Below are positions 4,677-24,695 of a DNA stretch of 64,000 nucleotides, piece after piece. Made by a program: the position numbers and the translations under genes. The stretch comes from Mycobacterium sherrisii (GTDB lineage Bacteria > Actinomycetota > Actinomycetes > Mycobacteriales > Mycobacteriaceae), in assembly GCF_002102355.1 (NCBI RefSeq), contig NZ_LQPT01000072.1, forward strand, positions 62,001 to 126,000, given 5' to 3'. Below the pieces are notes generated by a model. It was not told the DNA's origin. It saw only the letters and a program-made list of their open reading frames with translations, and ran no database searches. The number at the start of each line of letters is the position of its first letter. Within the stretch, counting starts at the first letter, position 1.

Positions 4677-5588
4677 ATGGCCAAATGGACCACCGCGGAC
4701 ATTCCCGACCTGTCCGGCCGCGTCGCCGTCGTCACCGGAGCCAACACGGGCCTGGGTTACGAGACCGCCTTGGCGCTGGCCGAGCGGGGCGCCCACGTGG
4801 TGCTCGCGGTCCGCAACCTCGAGAAAGGCAAGGATGCCGTCGCACGGATCAGCCGCCAGAGCCCCGGCGCCGACGTCGCGCTGCAAGAGCTCGACCTGAC
4901 GTCGCTCGCGTCGGTCCGGGCGGCCGCCGAGGCGTTGCGCGCCGCGCACGACCGGATCGACCTGCTGATCAACAACGCGGGCGTGATGTGGACGCCGAAA
5001 GCGACCACCAAAGACGGCTTCGAGCTGCAATTCGGCACCAACCATTTGGGTCACTTCGCCCTCACCGGGCTACTGCTGGACCGACTGCTGCCGGTCGCGG
5101 GGTCGCGCGTCGTGACCGTCAGCAGCGTCGGTCACCGCCTTCAGGCCGACATTCACTTCGACGACCTGCAATGGGAACGCAGCTACAGCCGTGTCGGCGC
5201 CTACGGGCAGGCCAAGCTGGCCAACCTGATGTTCACCTACGAGTTGCAACGACGGCTGGCGCCGCAGGGGACGACGATCGCGGTGGCGGCCCATCCTGGC
5301 GGCTCGCGCAGCGAGTTGACCCGCAACCTGCCGCCACTGTTGAGGCTCGTTTCCTCGGTACTCGAACCGTTGTTCCAGAGCCCGGACATGGGCGCGTTGC
5401 CGACGCTGCGGGCCGCGACCGATCCCGGCGTGCTGGGCGCGCAGTACTACGGCCCCGACGGTTTCGCCGAGCAACGCGGCTACCCCAAAGTTGTTGCGTC
5501 CAGCGAGAAGTCACACGACGTCGACGCGCAGCGTCGGTTGTGGGCGGTCTCCGAGGAGCTCACCGGGGTGACGTACCCGTTCGACTAG
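4677..5588 (+). CDS. Short-chain dehydrogenase, Rv0439c-like
   Basis: A 303-residue SDR of the retinol-dehydrogenase/protochlorophyllide-reductase type. Visible motifs are the NAD(P) turn TGANTGLG (20-27), NNAG (99-102), the catalytic Ser at about 150 and YGQAK (Tyr176, Lys180). It should reduce or oxidise an alcohol or carbonyl with NAD(P)H; Arg47 after the second strand favours NADPH. The substrate is unknown. The length and place next to groEL2 match Rv0439c (about 311 residues). It is closely related in layout to the second SDR in this window (21248-22180), which shares the FDGFELQ-GTNH-GHF signature region. Confidence 0.92.
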   Translation: MAKWTTADIPDLSGRVAVVTGANTGLGYETALALAERGAHVVLAVRNLEKGKDAVARISRQSPGADVALQELDLTSLASVRAAAEALRAAHDRIDLLINNAGVMWTPKATTKDGFELQFGTNHLGHFALTGLLLDRLLPVAGSRVVTVSSVGHRLQADIHFDDLQWERSYSRVGAYGQAKLANLMFTYELQRRLAPQGTTIAVAAHPGGSRSELTRNLPPLLRLVSSVLEPLFQSPDMGALPTLRAATDPGVLGAQYYGPDGFAEQRGYPKVVASSEKSHDVDAQRRLWAVSEELTGVTYPFD

Positions 5589-14649: not shown

Positions 14650-16817
14650 CCGCCGCGCGGCCCGGACAGCTGACGCTGACCGCCCGGCTGAACACCTCGG
14701 CCGTCGACTCGCGCCGCGGTGTCATCAGGATGCATCCGAACGCCCTTGCGGCTCTTGGCATTCGGGAGTGGGATGCGGTATCCCTGACGGGTTCGCGCAG
14801 CACGGCCGCGGTCGCCGGGCTGGCCGACCGGGACATTCCGGTCACTACCGTGCTACTCGACGACGTGACGCTGTCCAACGCGGGGCTGCGCGAGGGCACG
14901 GCGGTGATTGTCGGCGCGGTCACCGTGTACGGCGCGCGATCGGTGACGCTGAGCGGCTCCACGCTTGCCACGCAGTCGATCAGCCCGGCGACACTGCGGC
15001 ACGCGCTACTCGGCAAGGTGATGACGGTGGGTGACGCGGTGTCGCTGCTGCCCCGCGACCTGGGCCCGGGCACGTCGACGTCGTCCGCCGCCCGGGTGCT
15101 GGCCGCGTCGGTCGGGATTAGTTGGACCTCGGAACTGCTCACGGTCACCGGTGTCGATCCCGACGGACCGGTGAGCGTGCAACCCAACTCTTTGGTCACG
15201 TGGGGCGACGGGGTGGCGCCGGCCCGGGCGCAGCGGGTCGGCATCGCCAATCCGGCGATCCAGGTCGACGATCTGCGGGGCTCGCAGGTGCCAGCCGGCA
15301 AGCTCAGCGAATGGCTCAAGCTGGCCCTCGACGAACCGCATCTGCTGAAAACCCTTGGCGCGACCACGAATTTGGGTGTGTTGGTTTCGGGTCCGGCTGG
15401 GGTCGGCAAGACGACGATGGTGCGCGCGGTGTGCGCGGGACGCCGGCTGGTCGAGCTTGACGGCCCGGAGGTGGGTGCGCTGGCGGCCGAGGACCGACTC
15501 AAGGCGGTGACCGCCGCGGTGACCGCGGTGCGCGGTGTCGGATCGCAGGGCGGCGGCGTGCTGCTGATCACCGACGTCGACGCGCTCTTGCCGGACACCG
15601 CCGAGCCGGTGGCGGCGCTGATCCTCGCCGAGTTGCGCAATGCGGTGGCCACCGACGGCGTGGCGCTGATCGCCACGTCCGCGCGGCCCGACCACGTCGA
15701 TCCGCGACTGCGGTCCCCCGATCTGTGCGACCGAGAACTCGGCCTGACGCTGCCCGATGGCGCGACCCGCAAGGCGCTGCTCGAGACGCTGCTGCGATCC
15801 GTTCCGACAGGTGAGTTGGACATCGATGAAATCAGCAGTCGCACACCAGGTTTTGTGGCGGCCGATCTCGCTGCGCTGGTGCGTGAGGCGGCGTTGCGCG
15901 CGGCGTCGCGGGCCAGCGCCGACGGCCGGGCCCCCAGGCTGGAGCAGGACGATCTGGTCGGTGCGCTCAGCGTCATCCGGCCGCTGTCCCGTTCGGCCAG
16001 CGAGGAGCTGACCGTCGGCAACGTGACCCTCGAGGACGTCGGGGACATGGTGGCGGCCAAGCAGGCTCTCACCGAAGCGGTGCTGTGGCCGTTGCAGCAC
16101 CCCGACACCTTCGCGCGCCTGGGAGTCGATCCGCCGCGCGGCGTTCTGCTGTACGGCCCACCCGGCTGCGGCAAGACGTTCGTGGTCCGCGCACTGGCCA
16201 GCACCGGCCAGCTGAGCGTGCACGCGGTCAAGGGTTCGGAGCTGATGGACAAGTGGGTGGGCGCCTCGGAGAAGGCGGTGCGCGAGTTGTTTCGGCGTGC
16301 ACGGGATTCGGCGCCGTCGCTGGTGTTCCTCGACGAGGTCGATGCGTTGGCGCCGCGGCGTGGGCAGAGTTTCGACTCGGGCGTCACCGACCGGGTGGTG
16401 GCCGCGCTGCTGACCGAGCTCGACGGCATCGACCCGTTGCGCGATGTCGTCGTGTTGGGTGCCACCAACCGGCCCGACTTGATCGACCCCGCGCTGCTGC
16501 GTCCCGGCCGGTTGGAGCGCCGGGTGTTCGTCGAACCACCCGATGCTGCCGCCCGGCGCGAGATCCTGCGCACCGCAGCCAAATCCATACCGCTGAGCGC
16601 CGATGTCGATCTCGATGACATCGCAGCCGAACTCGACGGTTTCAGCGCGGCCGACTGCGTGGCCCTGCTGCGCGAGGCGGCGTTGACCGCGATGCGCCGG
16701 TCGATCGACGCCGCCGACGTGACCGCGGCCGACCTCGAGACGGCCCGTACGGCGGTGCGGCCGTCGCTGGACCCCGTTCAGGTGGACTCGCTACGGGCGT
16801 TCGCCGAAGCTCTCTAG
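14646..16817 (+). CDS. Double-domain AAA ATPase, CDC48-like (Rv0435c homologue)
   Basis: A 723-residue ATPase. The N-terminal 200 residues form a CDC48-type substrate domain. The first AAA domain has Walker A GPAGVGKT (249-256), but a changed Walker B (LLITDVDAL, 306-314) with Thr-Asp where the second domain has Asp-Glu. The second AAA domain is canonical, with GPPGCGKT (504-511) and LVFLDEVDAL (559-568), and it also has the GATNRPDLID sensor. It should unfold or remodel protein complexes. Its fixed position behind psd-pssA hints at membrane-enzyme quality control, but that is inference. The start ATG overlaps the pssA stop. Confidence 0.95.
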   Translation: MTAARPGQLTLTARLNTSAVDSRRGVIRMHPNALAALGIREWDAVSLTGSRSTAAVAGLADRDIPVTTVLLDDVTLSNAGLREGTAVIVGAVTVYGARSVTLSGSTLATQSISPATLRHALLGKVMTVGDAVSLLPRDLGPGTSTSSAARVLAASVGISWTSELLTVTGVDPDGPVSVQPNSLVTWGDGVAPARAQRVGIANPAIQVDDLRGSQVPAGKLSEWLKLALDEPHLLKTLGATTNLGVLVSGPAGVGKTTMVRAVCAGRRLVELDGPEVGALAAEDRLKAVTAAVTAVRGVGSQGGGVLLITDVDALLPDTAEPVAALILAELRNAVATDGVALIATSARPDHVDPRLRSPDLCDRELGLTLPDGATRKALLETLLRSVPTGELDIDEISSRTPGFVAADLAALVREAALRAASRASADGRAPRLEQDDLVGALSVIRPLSRSASEELTVGNVTLEDVGDMVAAKQALTEAVLWPLQHPDTFARLGVDPPRGVLLYGPPGCGKTFVVRALASTGQLSVHAVKGSELMDKWVGASEKAVRELFRRARDSAPSLVFLDEVDALAPRRGQSFDSGVTDRVVAALLTELDGIDPLRDVVVLGATNRPDLIDPALLRPGRLERRVFVEPPDAAARREILRTAAKSIPLSADVDLDDIAAELDGFSAADCVALLREAALTAMRRSIDAADVTAADLETARTAVRPSLDPVQVDSLRAFAEAL

Positions 16818-17399
16818 CATCGCCCGCACCGTCGCCGCGACGTCGTCCTCCAGCCACGACGGCATCGCGTCGTCGTGGGCGTGGCGCCGCACGACGGCAT
16901 AGGGCAGGTCGGAGACCGCACGCAGGACCGCATCGACATTGCGGGAACTTTTACGGCCGTAGAGCTTTCGGGCCAAGTCACCGACCCGCTCGAGTAGCGG
17001 CGCGTTCATCGTCGCCACCGTCTCCTGAAATCTCGCGTCGGGCTCCTCGTCGAGCAGGTCGGCCGGGCGGATGGTCAACAGCAGCCGGGCGTCCTGCGGA
17101 AGTTCCCGCGCGAAGCTGATCGCGGCGACTGCCATCGCGATCGCGGCGTCGGCCGGGGTATCGGCCGTGCTGGCCGCCGAAGCCGCCATGGCCCGGGACT
17201 GGAAACGTTCCAGCGCGCGCAGCCACGCCGCCTTCAGAATGCCGTCGCGGTTGCCGAAGCGGTGATAGAGCGTGCCGGCGGGCGCCCCGCTGGATTTCGC
17301 GATCGCCGCGACACTGGCCGCGCGCGGTCCGCCCTCGAGCACCAGCGCTCGAGCCGCGTCGAGGATCACATCCGTTTCATGCTTCCGCGGAGGTGCCAT
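16791..17399 (-). CDS. TetR family repressor
   Basis: A 202-residue regulator. The HTH is near the N-terminus (VAAIAKSSGAPAGTLYHRFGNRDGIL, ending about residue 55), followed by a helical ligand domain. Its last 27 bp overlap the end of the AAA ATPase gene tail to tail, and its start lies only 21 bp from the divergent SRPBCC gene. With so little room, one bound dimer would cover both promoters. The ligand is unknown. It marks the left edge of the accessory island inserted between the Rv0435c and Rv0434 homologues. Confidence 0.9.
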   Translation of the reverse strand: MAPPRKHETDVILDAARALVLEGGPRAASVAAIAKSSGAPAGTLYHRFGNRDGILKAAWLRALERFQSRAMAASAASTADTPADAAIAMAVAAISFARELPQDARLLLTIRPADLLDEEPDARFQETVATMNAPLLERVGDLARKLYGRKSSRNVDAVLRAVSDLPYAVVRRHAHDDAMPSWLEDDVAATVRAMLESFGERP

Positions 17400-17426
17400 G
17401 ATCTAGTACATTCCTTCTATATGGAA
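17400..17426. promoter_or_regulatory. Very short divergent control region
   Basis: Only 21 bp separate the two ATG codons. TTCC-N8-GGAA (17411-17426) is a short inverted repeat that overlaps the ATG at 17421. There is no Shine-Dalgarno site for that ATG, so its mRNA may be leaderless, which is common in mycobacteria. Confidence 0.4.
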
Positions 17427-18242
17427 CGATTACCCTATATTGATGAGTATGCCATAACAATCCACGCGACTCGGGCCGACACGTGGTCGGCGCTGCTGCA
17501 GGTGATGTGCCGCGACCCGCGCGACCCGGCAAGCGTGCCAACCGGTTTCGTGCTCGACGAGGTACGCCAACCGGAGCGATTCGCAATGCAGGGCCGCCAC
17601 CCGTTCGCGATCTACCGGTGGGTCTTCGAGTTGGATGCCGATGCACCGGGCCGCACCCGGGTGCGCTCGGCCACCTGGGCCGCATTCCCAGGAATCCACG
17701 GCAAGATCTATCGCGCGCTGGTCATCGGCACCGGAGGACACCGAGTCGCCGTGCAATGGACGCTGAAACGCATTGCGGCAGCCGCACTGGACGAGTGGCA
17801 GGACAGCGGTAAAGCCGCATCCGACTACACCGACGTGTTCGAGGTCCCCATCCGGTATGGCGACGTCCGCCCCGCCGACCAGATGTTCCGCGACGCGCTG
17901 CAGGGTCAGCCGGGCGGCGGCATCGTGCTCTGGATTCACCGGCACATCCTGAGGTTCCGTCCGGCACCGCAGTCCTGCCCCGAACAACTCATCGGTTGGC
18001 CGATCGTGCGTTCGGATCACGACGAGATCGTGCTCGCGACCAGCGGGCCGTTGATGCGCGGTGAGCTGACGTTGCGCCGCGAGGACGACCGGCGCGCCAC
18101 CCTGACCACTCGCGTGCATTACCGCCGCGGCGGCGCACGCGCGGTGTGGGCCGTCGTCGGTCCGCTGCATCGAGCCATTGCAGCACGGCTGGTCGAGCGT
18201 GCCGCCGCTAGCGGTCGGCGCGAGGCAGCAGCGCGACGGTGA
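17421..18242 (+). CDS. Two-domain SRPBCC/DUF2867-like protein
   Basis: A 273-residue protein that appears to contain two helix-grip (SRPBCC-type) units in a row. The first (about 1-135) has the pattern ATRADTW, a GRHPFAIYRWVFEL strand pair and AAFPGIHGKIYRALVIGTGGH at its C-terminal helix. The second (about 150-270) has DVFEVPI, the DUF2867 features LIGWPIVRSDHDEIVL and LMRGELTLR, and ends with VVGPLHRAIAARLVERA. Single-domain members bind lipids or polyketide-like ligands, or are of unknown function. The start ATG at 17421 has almost no leader. The divergent TetR probably controls it. The family call is from pattern memory and is less sure for the first half. Confidence 0.7.
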   Translation: MERLPYIDEYAITIHATRADTWSALLQVMCRDPRDPASVPTGFVLDEVRQPERFAMQGRHPFAIYRWVFELDADAPGRTRVRSATWAAFPGIHGKIYRALVIGTGGHRVAVQWTLKRIAAAALDEWQDSGKAASDYTDVFEVPIRYGDVRPADQMFRDALQGQPGGGIVLWIHRHILRFRPAPQSCPEQLIGWPIVRSDHDEIVLATSGPLMRGELTLRREDDRRATLTTRVHYRRGGARAVWAVVGPLHRAIAARLVERAAASGRREAAARR

Positions 18243-18314
18243 GACCGACGCCGACGCGGGCCCTACGTGCAAAGGATCAGTCCGCAGGTCACCAGATGGC
18301 CGCCGTCGTTTATT

Positions 18315-18346
18315 GCAGTAGACTGCATTCTTGCGTTCTACTGCAC
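18315..18346 (+). promoter_or_regulatory. Inverted repeat upstream of the Lux-like operon
   Basis: TGCAGTAGA (18315-18323) and TCTACTGCA (18338-18346) form a perfect 9-bp inverted repeat with a 14-bp spacer. A further TCTACT lies at 18355-18360, just before the start codon at 18367. The same 8-mer AGTAGACT found in the left arm (18318-18325) recurs at the start of the operon's own TetR gene (22180-22187). This is a good candidate operator for that TetR. Confidence 0.6.
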
Positions 18347-18366
18347 TGAATGTCTACTATGGCCCG

Positions 18367-19797
18367 ATGGCGAGTACGGCGGCGCGGCCGGTGACCGAGT
18401 TCATGAATGACCCGATCGGCTTCTTCGGCCAGTCCTACACCCGGATGCACAGCATCGGTCGTGACGAACTCGAAGAGCTGCAACGCGAGGCGATGGGCAT
18501 CCGGTTTCGCGAGCACTACGAACGCATCGAGATGCTGCGAAACCTGGCCGACCGGCTCGGCATCCGAGAGCTCTGCGAATTCAATGATGTCGTCCCGCTG
18601 CTGTTCTCACATACCGCATTCAAGTCGTATCCGGCCGCACTGGTGGACAAGAAGCGCTTCGACCTGATGACGCGGTGGCTGGACAAACTCACCAGCTACG
18701 ACCTGTCGGGCGTGGATGCCGCAGGCTGCACCGGGATCGACGACTGGATCGAACGACTCGACGCCCAGACACCGCTGGAGGTGATCACCTCGAGCGGCAC
18801 CACCGGAACGCTCTCGATTCTGCCCAAGGACAAGCGCGGCGCCGCAGAAGGCATGACACTGTGGAAGATCTGTCTTTTCCAGACCTTCGGCCACGAGCCA
18901 ACCGACCAAGAACTCAATCCGTCGGTCGATGTGGTCTGGCCGAACTTCGCCAACGGCAAGCTCGGTCATCTGCGCATTGCCAACATGATCAAGCGCGGCT
19001 TCACCGGGGGCGACGAAACCCGGTTTCACGCGCTCTATCCCTTCGCAGTCGATACCGACCTGATGTTTCTGGCCGCCAAGATGCGCGCCGCGGCGTCGCG
19101 CGGGGAACTGGACCGCTTGGAGATCGACCCGGCGCTGGCCGCCCGCAAGGACGAGTTCATCGCCATGCAGGCCCGCCAAGCCCAGGACATGGATGCGTTC
19201 TTCACCCGCATCACCGAGCAGTTACGCGGCAAGCGCGTATTCATGCTGGGCACCTACCACTTGATGTACGACATCGCCAAGGCCGGACTGGAGCGCGGCG
19301 TGCGAAACGTCTTCTCGCCCGACTCCGCGATTCTCACCGGAGGCGGTATGAAAGGTGTTGCGCTGCCTGGCGATTTCATGGATGTGATCCAGGACTTCCT
19401 CGGCGTGGACCGCATTCAGGTCGGCTACGGCTTTTCCGAGTCGAGCACCTTCCACTGGGGTTGCAGCGAGGGCCGCTACCACGTCGCACCGTGGGTCGTT
19501 CCGTTCGTGCTCGACCCGCAGACCAGCGAGCCACTTCCCCGTACCGGTGTGCAGACCGGACGCGCGGCCGTCTACGACATCCTGCTGCGCGCGCACTGGG
19601 GCGGCGTCATCTCCGGCGACGAGGTCACCATCGACTGGGACCTGCAATGCCCTTGCGGCCAGGCCAGCCTGGCATTCGAGCGCGACATCATGCGCTACAG
19701 CGAGAAGCAGGGTGTCCCAGACGACCGGATCACCTGCGCCGCAACACATGAGGTGCACAACGAGGCGGTCAACTTCATGAAGGGTGTCGACCTGTGA
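18367..19797 (+). CDS. LuxE/PaaK-like acyl-activating enzyme
   Basis: A 476-residue member of the adenylate-forming (ANL) superfamily, LuxE acyl-protein synthetase branch. Seen motifs are the phosphate loop SSGTTGT (142-148), the adenine motif YGFSES (354-359) and the late SGDEV (416-420). Cys-rich CPCGQ (428-431) and TCAATHEVHNEAVNF follow. The usual C-terminal lid domain of long ANL enzymes is short or missing, as in LuxE. The expected reaction is fatty acid plus ATP to acyl-AMP, then acyl transfer to an enzyme Cys or to the LuxC-like partner. It is the first gene of four linked by overlapping stop/start codons. An in-frame upstream start at 18331 falls in the operator; the ATG at 18367 is preferred. 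Confidence 0.8.
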   Translation: MASTAARPVTEFMNDPIGFFGQSYTRMHSIGRDELEELQREAMGIRFREHYERIEMLRNLADRLGIRELCEFNDVVPLLFSHTAFKSYPAALVDKKRFDLMTRWLDKLTSYDLSGVDAAGCTGIDDWIERLDAQTPLEVITSSGTTGTLSILPKDKRGAAEGMTLWKICLFQTFGHEPTDQELNPSVDVVWPNFANGKLGHLRIANMIKRGFTGGDETRFHALYPFAVDTDLMFLAAKMRAAASRGELDRLEIDPALAARKDEFIAMQARQAQDMDAFFTRITEQLRGKRVFMLGTYHLMYDIAKAGLERGVRNVFSPDSAILTGGGMKGVALPGDFMDVIQDFLGVDRIQVGYGFSESSTFHWGCSEGRYHVAPWVVPFVLDPQTSEPLPRTGVQTGRAAVYDILLRAHWGGVISGDEVTIDWDLQCPCGQASLAFERDIMRYSEKQGVPDDRITCAATHEVHNEAVNFMKGVDL

Positions 19798-21251
19798 TCG
19801 CCTACACCGTCCCGCTGTTCCTGCGGGGGCAGCTCATCACCGACGATCTCGTGCCGTTCGATACCCGCATCGGCGCCGCGCAGTTCCAGGCGCCGGACAT
19901 GAGCAAGTACGTCGAGCGGCTGCCGCTGAAGAGTCCCGGCGAGATGAGCGACCTCTACGAGTTGGGCTTCGACGAGATCCTCGACGTGCTGGGCGCTCTG
20001 GGCGATGCCTTGGACTTCGAGACGAATACCCACCTGCAGGAAGCCTACGAGGCCTCGCTGGTAGCCAACGTGCTGCCGGCGGAGATGATGAAGAACAGCT
20101 ATCTCGTGCTGCGCCCGCTGTTTTCGCGGGAGAACGTCACCGAGATCGCCGACAGCCAGGTCGGGCTGGACTACCTCAATGGGTGGGTCCCGCATACCTT
20201 GCACGACGGGCGCGAACTCCGGGTGCGCGCCTTCGGCTCCCGGGTGCTGCACATCCCGGCCGGCAACGGCGGGTTGGTGTCGGCAGTGACGATCCTGCGC
20301 TCGGTGATCACCCGATCCGACGTCATCATCAAGGCCCCGTCCAACGATCCGCTCACGGCGATCGCGATCGCCCGCACCCTTGCCGATATCGCGCCCGACC
20401 ACCCGATCACTCGACACCTGGCGGTCGGGTACTGGAAGGGCGGCGACCTCGCGGTCGAGGAAAAGCTCTACCAGCCCCAGCACGTCGAAAAAATTGTGGC
20501 GTGGGGCGGTATGGCGTCCGTCAAGCACGTAACCCGGTACATCCAACCGGGTTTGGAACTCATCGCGCTGGATCCGAAACGCAGCGCGACCATCATCGGC
20601 GCCGAAGCGTTCGCCGACGACGACACCCTGCGGGAAGTGGCTCGCCGGGCGGCGACCGATATCGGCGTGGCCAATCAGGAAGGGTGTGCCAACGCTCGTG
20701 TCATCTATGTGCTGAGCGGAACCGACACCGGGGGCCTGGCCAACGCGAACCGGCTCGGCGAGTTGATCTATCAAGAACTCGTCTCGCTGCCCGACCTCGT
20801 CAGCACGCCGCCGCGCTATCCCAACCGTGAGTTACTCGATCATGTCGAGGCATCGCGCATGACGGACGACTTCTATCGCGTCATCGGTGGCGAGCGACGC
20901 GAGGGCGCGATCGTCGTCTCCCAGATCGACGAGCCGGTCGACTATTCGCCGATGCTGTCGGGCCGGGTCGCCAACATCGTGCCGGTCGACAGCATCGACC
21001 GGGTGACCGCCGCGGTCAACGCCTACACTCAGACGATCGGCATCTATCCCGAATCGCTCAAGCGGCGGCTGCGAAACACGCTGCCGCTGTTCGGCGCCCA
21101 GCGGCTGACCAGCCTGGGCTACGCGTGCAGTGTCGCGCTCGCGATGCCCCAGGACGCCATCGAACCGATCCGGCGGATGTGCAAGTGGATCGTCGACGAA
21201 GAATGCGACCCTGCCACGGTCGTCCCGCTCTGGGAGCTGGCCGGTCGATGA
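19794..21251 (+). CDS. LuxC-like acyl-CoA/acyl-enzyme reductase
   Basis: A 485-residue protein of the acyl-CoA reductase (LuxC) family, a branch of the aldehyde dehydrogenase fold. The expected catalytic Cys is Cys298 in VANQEGCANARVIYV. The cofactor-binding part shows FGSRVLHIPAGNGG and a Lys/Asn segment VIIKAPSNDPLT (178-189). LuxC enzymes reduce an activated acyl group to an aldehyde with NADPH. A direct neighbour of a LuxE-like activator, it should form a fatty-acid reductase with it. The GTG start overlaps the upstream stop by four bases. No luciferase luxAB pair is present, so light emission is not implied. Confidence 0.85.
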   Translation: MIAYTVPLFLRGQLITDDLVPFDTRIGAAQFQAPDMSKYVERLPLKSPGEMSDLYELGFDEILDVLGALGDALDFETNTHLQEAYEASLVANVLPAEMMKNSYLVLRPLFSRENVTEIADSQVGLDYLNGWVPHTLHDGRELRVRAFGSRVLHIPAGNGGLVSAVTILRSVITRSDVIIKAPSNDPLTAIAIARTLADIAPDHPITRHLAVGYWKGGDLAVEEKLYQPQHVEKIVAWGGMASVKHVTRYIQPGLELIALDPKRSATIIGAEAFADDDTLREVARRAATDIGVANQEGCANARVIYVLSGTDTGGLANANRLGELIYQELVSLPDLVSTPPRYPNRELLDHVEASRMTDDFYRVIGGERREGAIVVSQIDEPVDYSPMLSGRVANIVPVDSIDRVTAAVNAYTQTIGIYPESLKRRLRNTLPLFGAQRLTSLGYACSVALAMPQDAIEPIRRMCKWIVDEECDPATVVPLWELAGR

Positions 21252-22180
21252 ACGAACGCCGGACCGCGTTGCAGGTCGTCGAGGGAATCGACCTCTCCGG
21301 CAAGACATGTGTGATCACCGGAGCCTCGTCCGGCCTGGGCCGCGAGGCGGCGCGCGCACTGGCCACCGCGGGCGCCCACGTAATCCTGGCCGCCCGCAAC
21401 CAGGAAGCACTGTCCGACGCCGCGCAGTGGGTCCGGGGCGAAGTGCCAGACGCGAGAGCGTCGACGGTCGAACTTGATCTGACCGCGCTGTCGAGCGTTC
21501 GCGCGGCGGCGGCCGCGATACGCGAGATCACACCGACCGTGCATGTGTTGATGAACAACGCCGGCGTCATGTTCACCCCGTTCGGCCGCACCCGAGACGG
21601 GTTCGAATTGCAGATCGGGACAAATCATTTCGGGCACTTCGAGCTGACCAGACTGCTGGTTCCGCAGCTGGCCGCCGCCGAGGGCGCCCGGCTGGTGATC
21701 CTGTCCTCGGCGGGTCACGTGATGGGCGACGTGAACTTCGACGACCCGAACTGGGAGCACCGCAACTACGACAAGTTCGAGGCATACGGCGCCGCCAAGA
21801 CGGCGAACATCCTGCACGCAATCGAAGCCGATCGGCGACTGTGCGAGTTGGGAATTCGCGCCTACGCCGTCCATCCGGGTGCCGTCGCGACCTCGTTGGC
21901 CCGGTATATGTCGCGCGAGGACTTCTCCGACCTTCGCAAGCTCGTCGTAAACAACAGCGCGCTACGGGGTGAGACGAGCAACGGCCGCCTCGATTTCGCC
22001 ACACCCGAAGAGGGCGCGGCCACGCAGGTATGGGCCGCGGTGAGCCCGGAGCTGACCGGTCGGGGTGCGCTGTATCTGCAAGACTGCAGCGTCGGCGAGA
22101 CGGGTGCAGCGTATGCGCGCGACGAGCAACGGGCCGCCGAGTGGTGGGCGCTGTCCGAAAAGCTGTGTGCCAGCGCATGA
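21248..22180 (+). CDS. Short-chain dehydrogenase of the Lux-like operon
   Basis: A 310-residue classical SDR. Motifs are TGASSGLG (24-31), NNAG (103-106), the catalytic Ser154 and YGAAK (Tyr180, Lys184). Arg50 after the second strand favours NADPH. It starts at ATG 21248, overlapping the LuxC-like stop (ATGA), and its own stop overlaps the TetR start (ATGA). In this context the simplest role is reduction of the aldehyde from the LuxC step to an alcohol, or the reverse oxidation; this is inference from context. It resembles the Rv0439c-type SDR at 4677. Confidence 0.88.
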   Translation: MNERRTALQVVEGIDLSGKTCVITGASSGLGREAARALATAGAHVILAARNQEALSDAAQWVRGEVPDARASTVELDLTALSSVRAAAAAIREITPTVHVLMNNAGVMFTPFGRTRDGFELQIGTNHFGHFELTRLLVPQLAAAEGARLVILSSAGHVMGDVNFDDPNWEHRNYDKFEAYGAAKTANILHAIEADRRLCELGIRAYAVHPGAVATSLARYMSREDFSDLRKLVVNNSALRGETSNGRLDFATPEEGAATQVWAAVSPELTGRGALYLQDCSVGETGAAYARDEQRAAEWWALSEKLCASA

Positions 22181-22749
22181 GTAGACTAGAACGGCGCAAA
22201 CAAGAGATGCGCGAGAAGATCCTCACCGCGGCGTTCGACCTGTTTTTGGCACAAGGGGTCGCGGCCACCACCATCGAGGAAATCTGCGAACGCGCTGATG
22301 TGGCCAACCGGACGTTCTTCAACCACTTCGCCACCCGCCAGGACATGATCCGCGCGTTAGCCGAGCGACGCCTAATCAACCTGCACGAAGTGGTTTTCGA
22401 CCGCGCCGACCAACCGATCCCGGCGCGGCTGATCGGGGTGTTCGACGACATCGGTACGACGCTGGTCAAATCCGGCGACACGTACCGCGAACTTATCGGC
22501 GAGATGCTCGCCACCTCCGGCTACGGCATTCAGCGCGGGTTCAACCTACACGCCACGTTCGGCGAACTCATCAAGGAAGGCGTCTCGCGCGGCGAGGTCA
22601 GTACGCGCCACGACGCAGAAACCTTGGCCGACATCATCGTTGGTGCGCTGTCGGGCGGTATCGTCAACTGGACGCTCGATCGCACCTACTCGCTGGCAAC
22701 CAACCTGCACAACCTGGGTGTCGCGCTGGCCGACCTGCTGCAGAGCTGA
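22177..22749 (+). CDS. TetR regulator closing the Lux-like operon
   Basis: A 190-residue TetR protein with the HTH at about residues 33-60 (IEEICERADVANRTFFNHFATRQDMI). The FFNHF recognition helix differs from the common YYHF form. It is translationally coupled to the SDR gene through ATGA, so the operon encodes its own regulator. The inverted repeat ahead of the first gene is a likely target. A fatty acid, acyl-CoA or aldehyde as ligand would fit but is unproven. Confidence 0.9.
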   Translation: MSRLERRKQEMREKILTAAFDLFLAQGVAATTIEEICERADVANRTFFNHFATRQDMIRALAERRLINLHEVVFDRADQPIPARLIGVFDDIGTTLVKSGDTYRELIGEMLATSGYGIQRGFNLHATFGELIKEGVSRGEVSTRHDAETLADIIVGALSGGIVNWTLDRTYSLATNLHNLGVALADLLQS

Positions 22750-22807
22750 GTAATTGCGTCGAGCCGCTAAACGGCAGACAGCCTGCGCGTGAGGGCCTAT
22801 AAATCAC

Positions 22808-22827
22808 GGGCTCGGCGAAGCCGGCCC
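22808..22827. terminator. Hairpin between converging operons
   Basis: GGGCT-CGGC-GAA-GCCG-GCCC forms an 8-bp stem with one bulged T, in the 84-bp gap between the TetR stop and the enoyl-CoA hydratase stop. There is no T-run; a terminator role is inferred from position. Confidence 0.4.
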
Positions 22828-22833
22828 ACCTAC

Positions 22834-23676
22834 TCACGGCTCGGGCAGGGCGTTCCAGTCCGCCGCAACGCTGCCACTGAAACGCGGGGACCGCCGATCG
22901 ACGAACGCGGCGACACCTTCACTCGCGTCGGGCGTGCCCATCACACGGTGGTGCAACTGCGTTTCCAGCGAGGCGACCTGACGCGGCGTGTAGCCATGAA
23001 TCGCGCTGTCCCACAACAACCGCTTGCTCAATGCCGCCGACATCGGCGCGACGTTGACCGCAATGTCGCGGGCCATCTCCAGCGCGGCGTCGAGCACCTG
23101 AGCGGCCGGAACCGCGCGATTCGCGATGCCATACGCCACGGCCTCCTGCCCGCCGAAGGTGCGCCCGGTCAGCAGCACCTCGGCGGCCACGCCGAGATTC
23201 GTCAGGTGCGCCAGCGTCCAGTGCGCCATGCAATCGGGTATCACGCCACGACGCACCTGCACCACACCGTATTTGGCGTCCCCGGCGAGAATGCGAATAT
23301 CGGCCTGCAGCGCGATGGTCAGCCCGATGCCGATGGCGTGCCCGTTGAGCGCGGCGATCACCGGTTTGCGTAGTTCGAACGCCGGCGGGTCGATCGGCGA
23401 CGCAGAGAACGTGGCATCGTGTTGCCGGCTATCGAATGGAGTTGCCCCGCCGGAGAAATCGGCACCGGCGCAAAAGGCCCGGCCCGCTCCGGTGACCACG
23501 ATGGCTCGGACGTCGTCGTCCTCGTCGCACGTACGGTACGCCGTGCTCAACAACGCGCCCATCTCGGCCGTGTACGCGTTGAGGTGCTCGGGCCGATTGA
23601 GCGTGAGCAGCGCCACACCCCTTTCGACGTCGACGAGTACCGGGCTGGCTTCCGCGCTGTTCATCGCAGGGTTCAT
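22834..23676 (-). CDS. Enoyl-CoA hydratase/isomerase family protein
   Basis: A 280-residue crotonase-fold protein. It has the NRPEHLNAYT opening, the oxyanion segment GAGRAFCAGADFSGG near residue 70, and a second segment ALNGHAIGIGLTIAL. In the next block RRGVIPD carries an Arg-Gly-Val-Ile-Pro stretch where classic hydratases have the second catalytic Glu (usually GxxPE or similar), so the exact reaction is open. The ATG at 23676 overlaps the stop of the upstream F420-LLM gene (ATGA), so the two are coupled. It converges on the Lux-like operon. A role in acyl-CoA turnover is likely but the substrate is unknown. Confidence 0.88.
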   Translation of the reverse strand: MNPAMNSAEASPVLVDVERGVALLTLNRPEHLNAYTAEMGALLSTAYRTCDEDDDVRAIVVTGAGRAFCAGADFSGGATPFDSRQHDATFSASPIDPPAFELRKPVIAALNGHAIGIGLTIALQADIRILAGDAKYGVVQVRRGVIPDCMAHWTLAHLTNLGVAAEVLLTGRTFGGQEAVAYGIANRAVPAAQVLDAALEMARDIAVNVAPMSAALSKRLLWDSAIHGYTPRQVASLETQLHHRVMGTPDASEGVAAFVDRRSPRFSGSVAADWNALPEP

Positions 23677-24695
23677 CGTCGTATGGCGCTTTGGTGCAAG
23701 GCATCGATCAGGGCGGCGACGTCGGCACTCGGTGGCGTGTATCCGGGGAAATAACAACAGATTTCGTCGACGTGGTCGCCGAATCGTGCGGCGATCTGCT
23801 TGGCGCAGTCATCGGGTGAGCCGACGATCCCGATCCGGGCGACCATCTCGTCGGTGATCAGGGCGCGCATCTCGGCGAAGCGGCCTTGTTTGGACAGCGC
23901 GTTGAGCTTCGGCTGCAGTTGCGCCCACCCCTCGACCTCGAGCACCGGCCGGTAGGCCGGGGTCGAGCCGTAGAACGCGATCAACGACGCGACCCCGTTG
24001 ATGGCCGCGGTCAGGTCGGCTTCACTGCTGGCGACCGCCACCATGGCCTGGGCGATCACGTCCAGGTCGGTGGCACGCCGCCCCGCACGGCGCAGTCCTT
24101 CGTCGACGGCGGGCAGGGTACGTTCGGCGAAATGGCGGGCGCTGTTGAACGGCATGACGAGCAGGCCGTCGGCGACCTCGGCCGCGGTGCGGGTCATGAT
24201 CGGTCCCAGCGCTCCCATCAGCACCGGCGGCGGCCCGAAGGGGTTGGGACCCGGATTGAAGTTGGGCGCCATCAGCGTGTGGGTAACGAACTCACCGCGA
24301 AAGTTCAACGGCGACTGGCCTTCCCACGCCGCGAATATCGCCTTGATCGCCGCGATCGTCTCGGCCATGCGTGCGGCCGGCCGGTGCCATGTGCTGCCGT
24401 AACGCTTTTCAATGTGAACCTTGATTTGTGACCCGAGCCCGAGCCGGAACCGGCCACCGCTGAAGACCTGCAGATCGTAGGCCGCGTGGGCCAGGTGCAG
24501 CGGGCTGCGCGGCGCGGCGATCGCCACGTTGGTCATCAGCGCGAGGCTGGTCTCCCGGGCGGCGACGAGCAGCGGGAAGAAGACGTCGTGTTGACCTTCG
24601 AAGGTGAACAGGCCGTCGGCACCCGTCGCGGCGATCTCGGCCGCGCTGGTCGAGGCGCCCGTCGGCGATCCGTTGACCTGCAGATGTACTTTCAT
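23673..24695 (-). CDS. LLM-class F420-dependent oxidoreductase
   Basis: A 340-residue luciferase-like monooxygenase-fold protein. The sequence FEGQHDVFFPLLVAA, the SGGRFRLGLGSQIK block near residue 80 and the late IGIVGSPDDCAKQI are characteristic of the F420-dependent TIGR03617-like group. The reaction is unknown; such enzymes move hydride between F420 and a substrate. Genes of this type often sit with acyl-CoA enzymes, as here with the coupled enoyl-CoA hydratase. Its start at 24695 is an ATG 44 bp from the stop of the LON-domain gene upstream on the same strand. Confidence 0.88.
   Translation of the reverse strand: MKVHLQVNGSPTGASTSAAEIAATGADGLFTFEGQHDVFFPLLVAARETSLALMTNVAIAAPRSPLHLAHAAYDLQVFSGGRFRLGLGSQIKVHIEKRYGSTWHRPAARMAETIAAIKAIFAAWEGQSPLNFRGEFVTHTLMAPNFNPGPNPFGPPPVLMGALGPIMTRTAAEVADGLLVMPFNSARHFAERTLPAVDEGLRRAGRRATDLDVIAQAMVAVASSEADLTAAINGVASLIAFYGSTPAYRPVLEVEGWAQLQPKLNALSKQGRFAEMRALITDEMVARIGIVGSPDDCAKQIAARFGDHVDEICCYFPGYTPPSADVAALIDALHQSAIRR

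Follow-up and report, generated by a model that had tools for sequence, protein, structure and literature searches.

The operon and its position in Mycobacterium sherrisii

The window, a 64,000-nucleotide stretch of the Mycobacterium sherrisii genome, contains an operon of four genes, which code for a LuxE-like adenylating protein, a LuxC-family acyl reductase, a short-chain dehydrogenase/reductase (SDR) and a TetR-family regulator (Table 1). All four genes lie on the forward strand and each overlaps the next; the stop-to-start joints (GTGA, ATGA and ATGA) and the SSGTTGT and YGFSES motifs of the first protein are as claimed in a preliminary description of this locus. We propose that the cassette is probably a split, ATP-driven carboxylic acid reductase made of two proteins and encoded in a TetR-controlled operon. 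Beyond the earlier description, we identified a tandem dyad upstream of the first gene, a flanking gene for an F420-type LLM (luciferase-fold) oxidoreductase, and the retention of the SDR gene in relatives without the LuxE-like/LuxC-like pair. Relative to Mycobacterium triplex, the ratio of nonsynonymous to synonymous substitution rates (dN/dS) is 0.087 for the LuxE-like gene, 0.090 for the LuxC-like gene, 0.095 for the TetR gene and 0.184 for the SDR gene.

Table 1. Genes and predicted control elements at the locus (window coordinates)
Feature	Position	Strand	Remarks
Second TetR regulator	16791..17399	-	Pfam; divergent from the DUF2867 gene
DUF2867-containing protein, upstream neighbor	17262..18242	+	Pfam
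Tandem operator TGCAN5CTGCA-N3-TTGCN6CTGCA, candidate site of the TetR at 22177-22749	18314..18345	+	conserved dyad
Promoter-like element, TTGCGT (18331-18336), 18 bases, TACTAT (18355-18360)	18331..18360	+	overlaps operator
LuxE-like adenylating enzyme (predicted)	18367..19797	+	ATG start; 476 aa; tail cysteine Cys457
LuxC-family acyl reductase	19794..21251	+	GTG start; 485 aa; Cys298
SDR oxidoreductase	21248..22180	+	ATG start; 310 aa; short-chain dehydrogenase (Pfam)
TetR-family regulator	22177..22749	+	ATG start; 190 aa; TetR_N (Pfam)
Enoyl-CoA hydratase/isomerase, neighbor	22834..23757	-	Pfam; start codon uncertain
LLM oxidoreductase TIGR03617, predicted F420-dependent	23673..24695	-	454 bits, cutoff 278

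The LuxE-like and LuxC-like proteins and their pairing

The second protein matches the Pfam LuxC model (PF05893) over positions 6-401 of 401 with 117.2 bits against a cutoff of 21, and a profile of its family built from 24 relatives retrieves a single solved structure at E<=1e-5, namely the LuxC chain 7xc6_A (8.7e-41). Cys298, the residue previously suggested for a LuxC-like reductase, aligns with a cysteine of this chain, which we take to be the catalytic cysteine of LuxC, and is invariant in all 38 aligned pairs. Identity to a LuxC is 27% across 74% of the length, and with 124.7 bits against a cutoff of 750 the protein is not a member of the bioluminescence LuxC equivalog (NF052251). The 38-pair conservation set left out locus L064, broken and partial copies, L052, L048-like near copies and true LuxE.

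For the first protein there was no Pfam-A match at E<=1, and its single sequence reached the LuxE chain in the PDB (7xc6_E) at a sub-threshold E=0.003. A profile of 25 relatives recovered 7xc6_E at 1.6e-7, with PaaK-type proteins at 8.7e-4 and weaker; comparison of the family with a LuxE by hhalign gave 94.9%, and 15 of the 25 family members matched the Pfam LuxE model (PF04443) at E<=10, the best at 8.8e-8. Assignment of the two proteins to LuxC and LuxE by profile therefore stands in full for the former, and for the latter it extends to the LuxE/PaaK group by family profile but not to membership of PF04443. In the predicted structure, residues 21-449 align to residues 4-334 of a 424-residue PaaK-type chain, leaving 27 residues after the aligned region, and about 90 C-terminal PaaK residues have no counterpart in the model. 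The C-terminal domain of PaaK serves CoA chemistry, and LuxE carries its acyl-accepting cysteine close to the C-terminus. Cys457 of the LuxE-like protein, which sits in a low-confidence loop of the model, is invariant across the 38 pairs and is kept even at L064, outside that set, where cysteines 366, 428 and 430 are absent. The structure prediction thus points to a LuxE-type adenylating N-terminal fold without the CoA-transfer domain. Together with the profile and the constant position of the gene, it suggests that the first protein is LuxE-like, with a PaaK-type adenylating fold minus its C-terminal domain and a flexible cysteine-bearing tail. The earlier proposal of a LuxE-like activator is accordingly favored by fold, profile, C-terminal cysteine and constant adjacency, but by score the protein falls below the LuxE models of Pfam and NCBIfam.

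The adjacency is a recurrent feature. When one genome per species was scanned, 36 loci emerged, and in 33 of them (counting L047, whose two copies are broken) the LuxE-like gene adjoins the LuxC-like gene, confirming that the two stand side by side in other genomes. The 3 remaining loci are contig-end fragments: L039 and L058 begin inside LuxC, and L059 is a scrap with a 49-residue LuxC piece on the opposite strand. The LuxE-like gene usually precedes LuxC, with the order reversed in L051 and L053. Paired loci include Myxococcota and Deltaproteobacteria bins, Thauera, Sphingobium and a Hodarchaeota bin, and a Halieaceae bin (L050) holds two pairs. At L019-L021, where LuxC identity is 24-30%, no LuxE-like gene was found within about 1.5 kb on either side.

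The pair is rare and patchily distributed. Among the 396 genomes searched within the phylum, that of the window included, strong LuxC-like matches occur in 4, each with a strong LuxE-like match alongside; a lone LuxC-like match was seen in one further genome (G366, 6.9e-19), and some LuxC match in 18 of 198 relatives, L019-L021 among them. As the genome-wide searches scored few candidates per genome (4 in the phylum scan), these counts are lower bounds. Among plasmids, 47 records have a LuxC match; seven were opened, one of them being a lux yardstick and the other six carrying the pair, in each case with the LuxE-like gene annotated 'hypothetical protein'. A tree of the pair alignments splits the mycobacterial pairs over several separate clades, one grouping with Caballeronia and another with Sphingobium (support 100 for each), and places the Myxococcota/Deltaproteobacteria bins next to the actinobacterial clade (support 99). 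Given these separate mycobacterial clades and cross-phylum groupings, horizontal transfer is the simplest reading of how the pair spread. It also gets lost: in M. genavense (L047:6578-9457) both pair genes are broken and the SDR, TetR, hydratase and LLM genes match nearly full length, and in G031 (L086:9175-10460) the first 251 residues of the DUF2867 gene are fused directly to LuxC residues 305-483, the LuxE-like gene being gone and the SDR and a shortened TetR remaining.

Operator, companion genes and gene contexts

That the operon has its own regulator, as first described, is supported by the candidate tandem operator, which overlies the promoter-like element. Across the 5.56 Mb genome its exact inner dyad, TGCAGTNNACTGCA, is found at a single location; a search tolerating one mismatch gives 8 sites per strand against 7 for a backward control, so that such near matches amount to background and a wide regulon was rejected. 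The full tandem pattern is present once each in 17 of 50 scanned sequences (the window and 16 of 49 others), and the operator core is invariant in 11/11 aligned upstream regions; the pattern was tuned on upstream regions, so that the evidence lies in its specificity and not in its discovery. It was not found in four loci without the pair, in the remnant L086 or in more distant clades. The ATG of the LuxE-like gene is only 6 bases past TACTAT, and hence the operon message may be leaderless; the alternative, longer reading from a TTG codon at 18331 would begin within the operator. Allowing spacings of 16-19, a TTGC-17/18-TAnnnT element overlaps the operator in 17/17 upstream regions (with CTGC in L047, which takes the place of L059 in this set). 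A relative of the operon TetR (at least 67% identity) is encoded in 14 of the 17 operator-bearing loci, the window counted, and is missing from L034, L035 and the short L059. Since L034 and L035 keep the operator without this relative, it would have to be read there by a different regulator, perhaps another TetR. L038 has a TetR at 56% identity and no operator. In L040 and L042 the place of the operator upstream of the LuxE-like gene is taken by another dyad, TAAAACATC-n-GGTGTTTTA-like. Taken together, the sequence patterns suggest that the TetR probably autoregulates the operon via the predicted operator.

Joint travel of all four genes, a point that the preliminary description put up for checking, did not hold. 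Four LLM-bearing loci without a window-type pair were opened (L085, L087, L088 and L089), all of which keep the SDR, hydratase and LLM genes; LuxE, LuxC and an operon-type TetR were not found in any of them, and one of these relatives, G100, has another pair elsewhere (L090). We accordingly rejected the four genes as a travelling block, the unit being LuxE plus LuxC, joined in the mycobacterial clade by the operator and the TetR. Because the SDR, hydratase and LLM genes stand alone in relatives, the pair appears to have joined, or to have been lost from, a resident group of these three. The SDR is PRK06196-like; it scores 315 bits, which is under the model cutoff of 414. A second SDR, at window positions 4677-5588 near a groEL-like gene, has 51% identity to residues 14-221 of the operon SDR.

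The LLM protein has F420-dependent enzymes as its best solved matches, and two copies in this genome exceed the TIGR03617 cutoff. A relative (66-86% identity) is found within the available sequence of 14 of 43 scanned loci. Six of these represent different gene arrangements (L034, L035, L040, L041, L042 and L048) and all six are over the TIGR03617 cutoff, with the first 67 model positions unmatched in L041 and the L042 gene truncated where its sequence ends. On an M. avium plasmid (L060), another F420-type LLM gene (TIGR03857) precedes the pair, the ends overlapping. A close LLM (E<=1e-120) occurs in 23 of 198 relatives, only 7 of which also have a window-type LuxC (at least 88% identity), including one remnant (G031) and one broken copy (G076, interrupted at the break points seen in L047). 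Seen from the LuxC side, the LLM is present in 7 of the 8 genomes that carry a window-type LuxC; these are all close relatives and hence no independent test. As it is common in relatives without the pair, the LLM was rejected as an obligate partner and is a frequent companion. Neither luxA/luxB nor luxD was found among the eight genes scanned (16791 to 24695), which confirms the reported absence of a luxA/luxB pair there; the luciferase-fold neighbor is of the TIGR03617 F420 type.

Contexts elsewhere were surveyed through 30 neighbor proteins picked from other loci for Pfam scans and through annotated plasmid stretches. The neighbors include SMP-30/gluconolactonase, P450, KshA-like Rieske oxygenase, FadD, acyl-CoA dehydrogenase, enoyl-CoA hydratase and ecdysteroid-kinase-like proteins, an association suggestive of a role in degrading cyclic or terpenoid/steroid-like compounds. 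In light of these catabolic-looking neighbors, a terpenoid- or steroid-like acid, cyclic or branched, is a more likely substrate than the long-chain fatty acid originally considered, for which no support emerged. No link between steroids and LuxC was found in the open-access literature searched. Unlike these catabolic-looking loci, those of Caballeronia and Pseudonocardia look biosynthetic. The Caballeronia plasmid (L061:8533-20932) has the pair followed by an alcohol dehydrogenase gene, with wax ester synthase-type and phasin genes close by. On the Pseudonocardia plasmid pLS1-1 (L063:1040-12737) the pair lies beside a polyketide synthase gene, along with P450 and MFS transporter genes, and may release a polyketide chain as an aldehyde. 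The M. avium plasmid pP7a (L060:7391-13361), typed as mobilizable and derived from a sputum isolate, has LLM, LuxE-like, LuxC, ecdysteroid-kinase-like and SDR genes in series. In M. triplex, the gene that separates DUF2867 from the pair was considered as a lipid gene and rejected, as it encodes an MFS transporter.

The M. sherrisii locus itself seems to occupy a conserved part of the chromosome, flanked on one side by what are presumably groEL-, moeA-, psd-, pss- and AAA-ATPase-like genes and on the other by presumed Lon-like, glutamate-cysteine ligase-like and sodC-like genes, the names being based on the translations.

Proposed reaction, alternatives and known systems

Every chemical step of the proposed reaction is one that we infer. 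The LuxE-like protein would use ATP to convert a free acid to an acyl-AMP and would move the acyl group onto Cys457 in its flexible C-terminal arm, from which it would be handed directly to Cys298 of the LuxC-like partner. The latter would reduce the thioester with NAD(P)H and release an aldehyde, making LuxD and CoA dispensable. The aldehyde could then pass to the oxidoreductases encoded nearby, namely the SDR and perhaps also the LLM protein. Repression by the TetR would act through the tandem operator that overlies the promoter and would probably be lifted by substrate or product, and the pair would constitute a horizontally moving module, mostly in catabolic-looking loci. Thus, from the acid-to-alcohol chain drawn in the preliminary description we retain the LuxE and LuxC steps as predictions; the conversion of aldehyde to alcohol by the SDR is weaker than implied, since the SDR is kept in 4/4 loci without the pair.

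Several observations weigh against a two-protein reductase of this kind. The NCBIfam LuxE model (NF052244) is matched below threshold (E=1.4e-4, 21 bits against a cutoff of 550), and the nearest solved folds among the matches listed for the LuxE-like model are PaaK-type CoA ligases; 7xc6_E is not among these listed matches, which excludes nothing. Cys457 corresponds to the LuxE cysteine by position only, the automatic alignment being one column off, and Cys366, Cys428 and Cys430 show no variation among these 38 pairs either, so that invariance alone cannot single it out. The pairing is not strictly one to one, as L064 has two LuxE-like genes and one LuxC-like gene, and weak LuxE-like matches occur without a LuxC-like match in three genomes of the phylum (G029, G205 and G379). 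Finally, the SDR gene is independent of the pair, and the end product is therefore not fixed as an alcohol.

The PaaK-type folds would suit a scheme in which the LuxE-like protein acts as an acyl-CoA ligase of the PaaK type and its acyl-CoA product diffuses to the LuxC-like protein, an ordinary acyl-CoA reductase, as this partner is publicly annotated; FadD-type ligase or acyl-CoA enzymes near some loci are also in keeping with it. We consider this quite unlikely, given that the predicted structure has no counterpart of the PaaK C-terminal region, that the tail Cys457 is invariant in 38/38 pairs, and that constant pairing suggests a direct hand-over, unnecessary if the intermediate were a diffusible CoA ester. 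The pair might also run in reverse, with the LuxC-like protein oxidizing a catabolic aldehyde to an enzyme thioester and the LuxE-like protein releasing it, yielding ATP or free acid. The many catabolic-looking neighbors (P450, Rieske oxygenase, enoyl-CoA hydratases, acyl-CoA dehydrogenase and SMP-30/gluconolactonase-like proteins) would accord with this, but it appears highly improbable, as the chemistry of LuxC and LuxE is known in the reductive direction and the ATP-forming direction would be a new reaction.

A biosynthetic role, in which the aldehyde or alcohol formed by the pair would serve a lipid or polyketide product such as a wax ester or an off-loaded chain, is suggested by the Caballeronia pair with its alcohol dehydrogenase, wax ester synthase-type gene and phasin, and by the Pseudonocardia pair adjoining a polyketide synthase gene. 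It seems unlikely, for no wax ester or polyketide synthase was detected by Pfam among the window neighbors and the 30 picked neighbor proteins. A further possibility extends the two-protein reductase to a recurring actinobacterial lux-like trio, in which the Cys-to-Cys relay of the LuxE-like and LuxC-like proteins would hand the aldehyde to a luciferase-fold F420 enzyme, as a dark counterpart of lux that is either the source of bioluminescence or parallel to it. The LLM, luxE-like and luxC-like genes are consecutive in L041 and likewise on the M. avium plasmid (L060), and the first two overlap; we nevertheless hold this extension to be very unlikely.

If the two-protein reductase is correct, a family labelled 'hypothetical protein' in the six pair-bearing plasmid records would gain a function in CoA-free acid reduction by two proteins, and biocatalysis a new type of carboxylic acid reductase. 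The single operator and single regulator could serve as a ready reporter for finding the substrate. The separate mycobacterial clades and lux-like neighbors also bear on the origin of the lux fatty acid reductase.

LuxE and LuxC genes outside bioluminescence are carried by flagellin glycosylation islands of Enterobacteriaceae and Aeromonas, which differ in being surrounded by flagellar glycan and fatty acid genes; unlike the TetR-bearing window cassette, no dedicated regulator is mentioned for them in the accessible parts of these reports (PMC4875605, PMC7874193). A comparison with lux has also been made for mel2, a locus of Mycobacterium marinum that contains a luciferase-like gene; the authors of that comparison see no clear LuxE homologue, and the resemblance to LuxC is that of a domain of MelK. 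On their statement about LuxE we rejected mel2 as a precedent (PMC1793995). The present actinobacterial LuxE-like/LuxC-like family was not found in the open-access literature among the titles and abstract starts listed. The chemistry is thus likely familiar, but the literature searched describes neither the family itself nor the constant pairing, the private operator and the lux-like neighbors that go with it.

The cassette resembles the LuxC-LuxE system (7xc6) in having a LuxC-type reductase with an aligned cysteine and a LuxE-like partner with a C-terminal cysteine, on separate chains encoded by adjacent genes; it differs in being without luxAB and luxD and in that the LuxE-like gene usually comes first. 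The LuxE-like protein of the window is about 100 residues longer than LuxE (476 versus 370) and below the curated cutoffs, and its invariant Cys366, Cys428 and Cys430 are absent from LuxE and align instead with cysteines of the PaaK-type 9s3l. From the PaaK phenylacetate-CoA ligase family it is set apart by the missing counterpart of the C-terminal domain, the tail cysteine and the adjoining LuxC-like gene. Carboxylic acid reductases (CARs) are single chains with adenylation, carrier and thioester-reductase domains. The cassette shares with them the predicted overall reaction, from acid, ATP and NADPH to aldehyde, and differs in its two chains, its proposed Cys-to-Cys transfer and its LuxC-type reductase. 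The same genome has three open frames of 1187-1235 aa, presumably CAR size, with a thioester-reductase domain over cutoff, and these comparisons support the earlier suggestion that the pair represents a two-chain alternative to the CARs.

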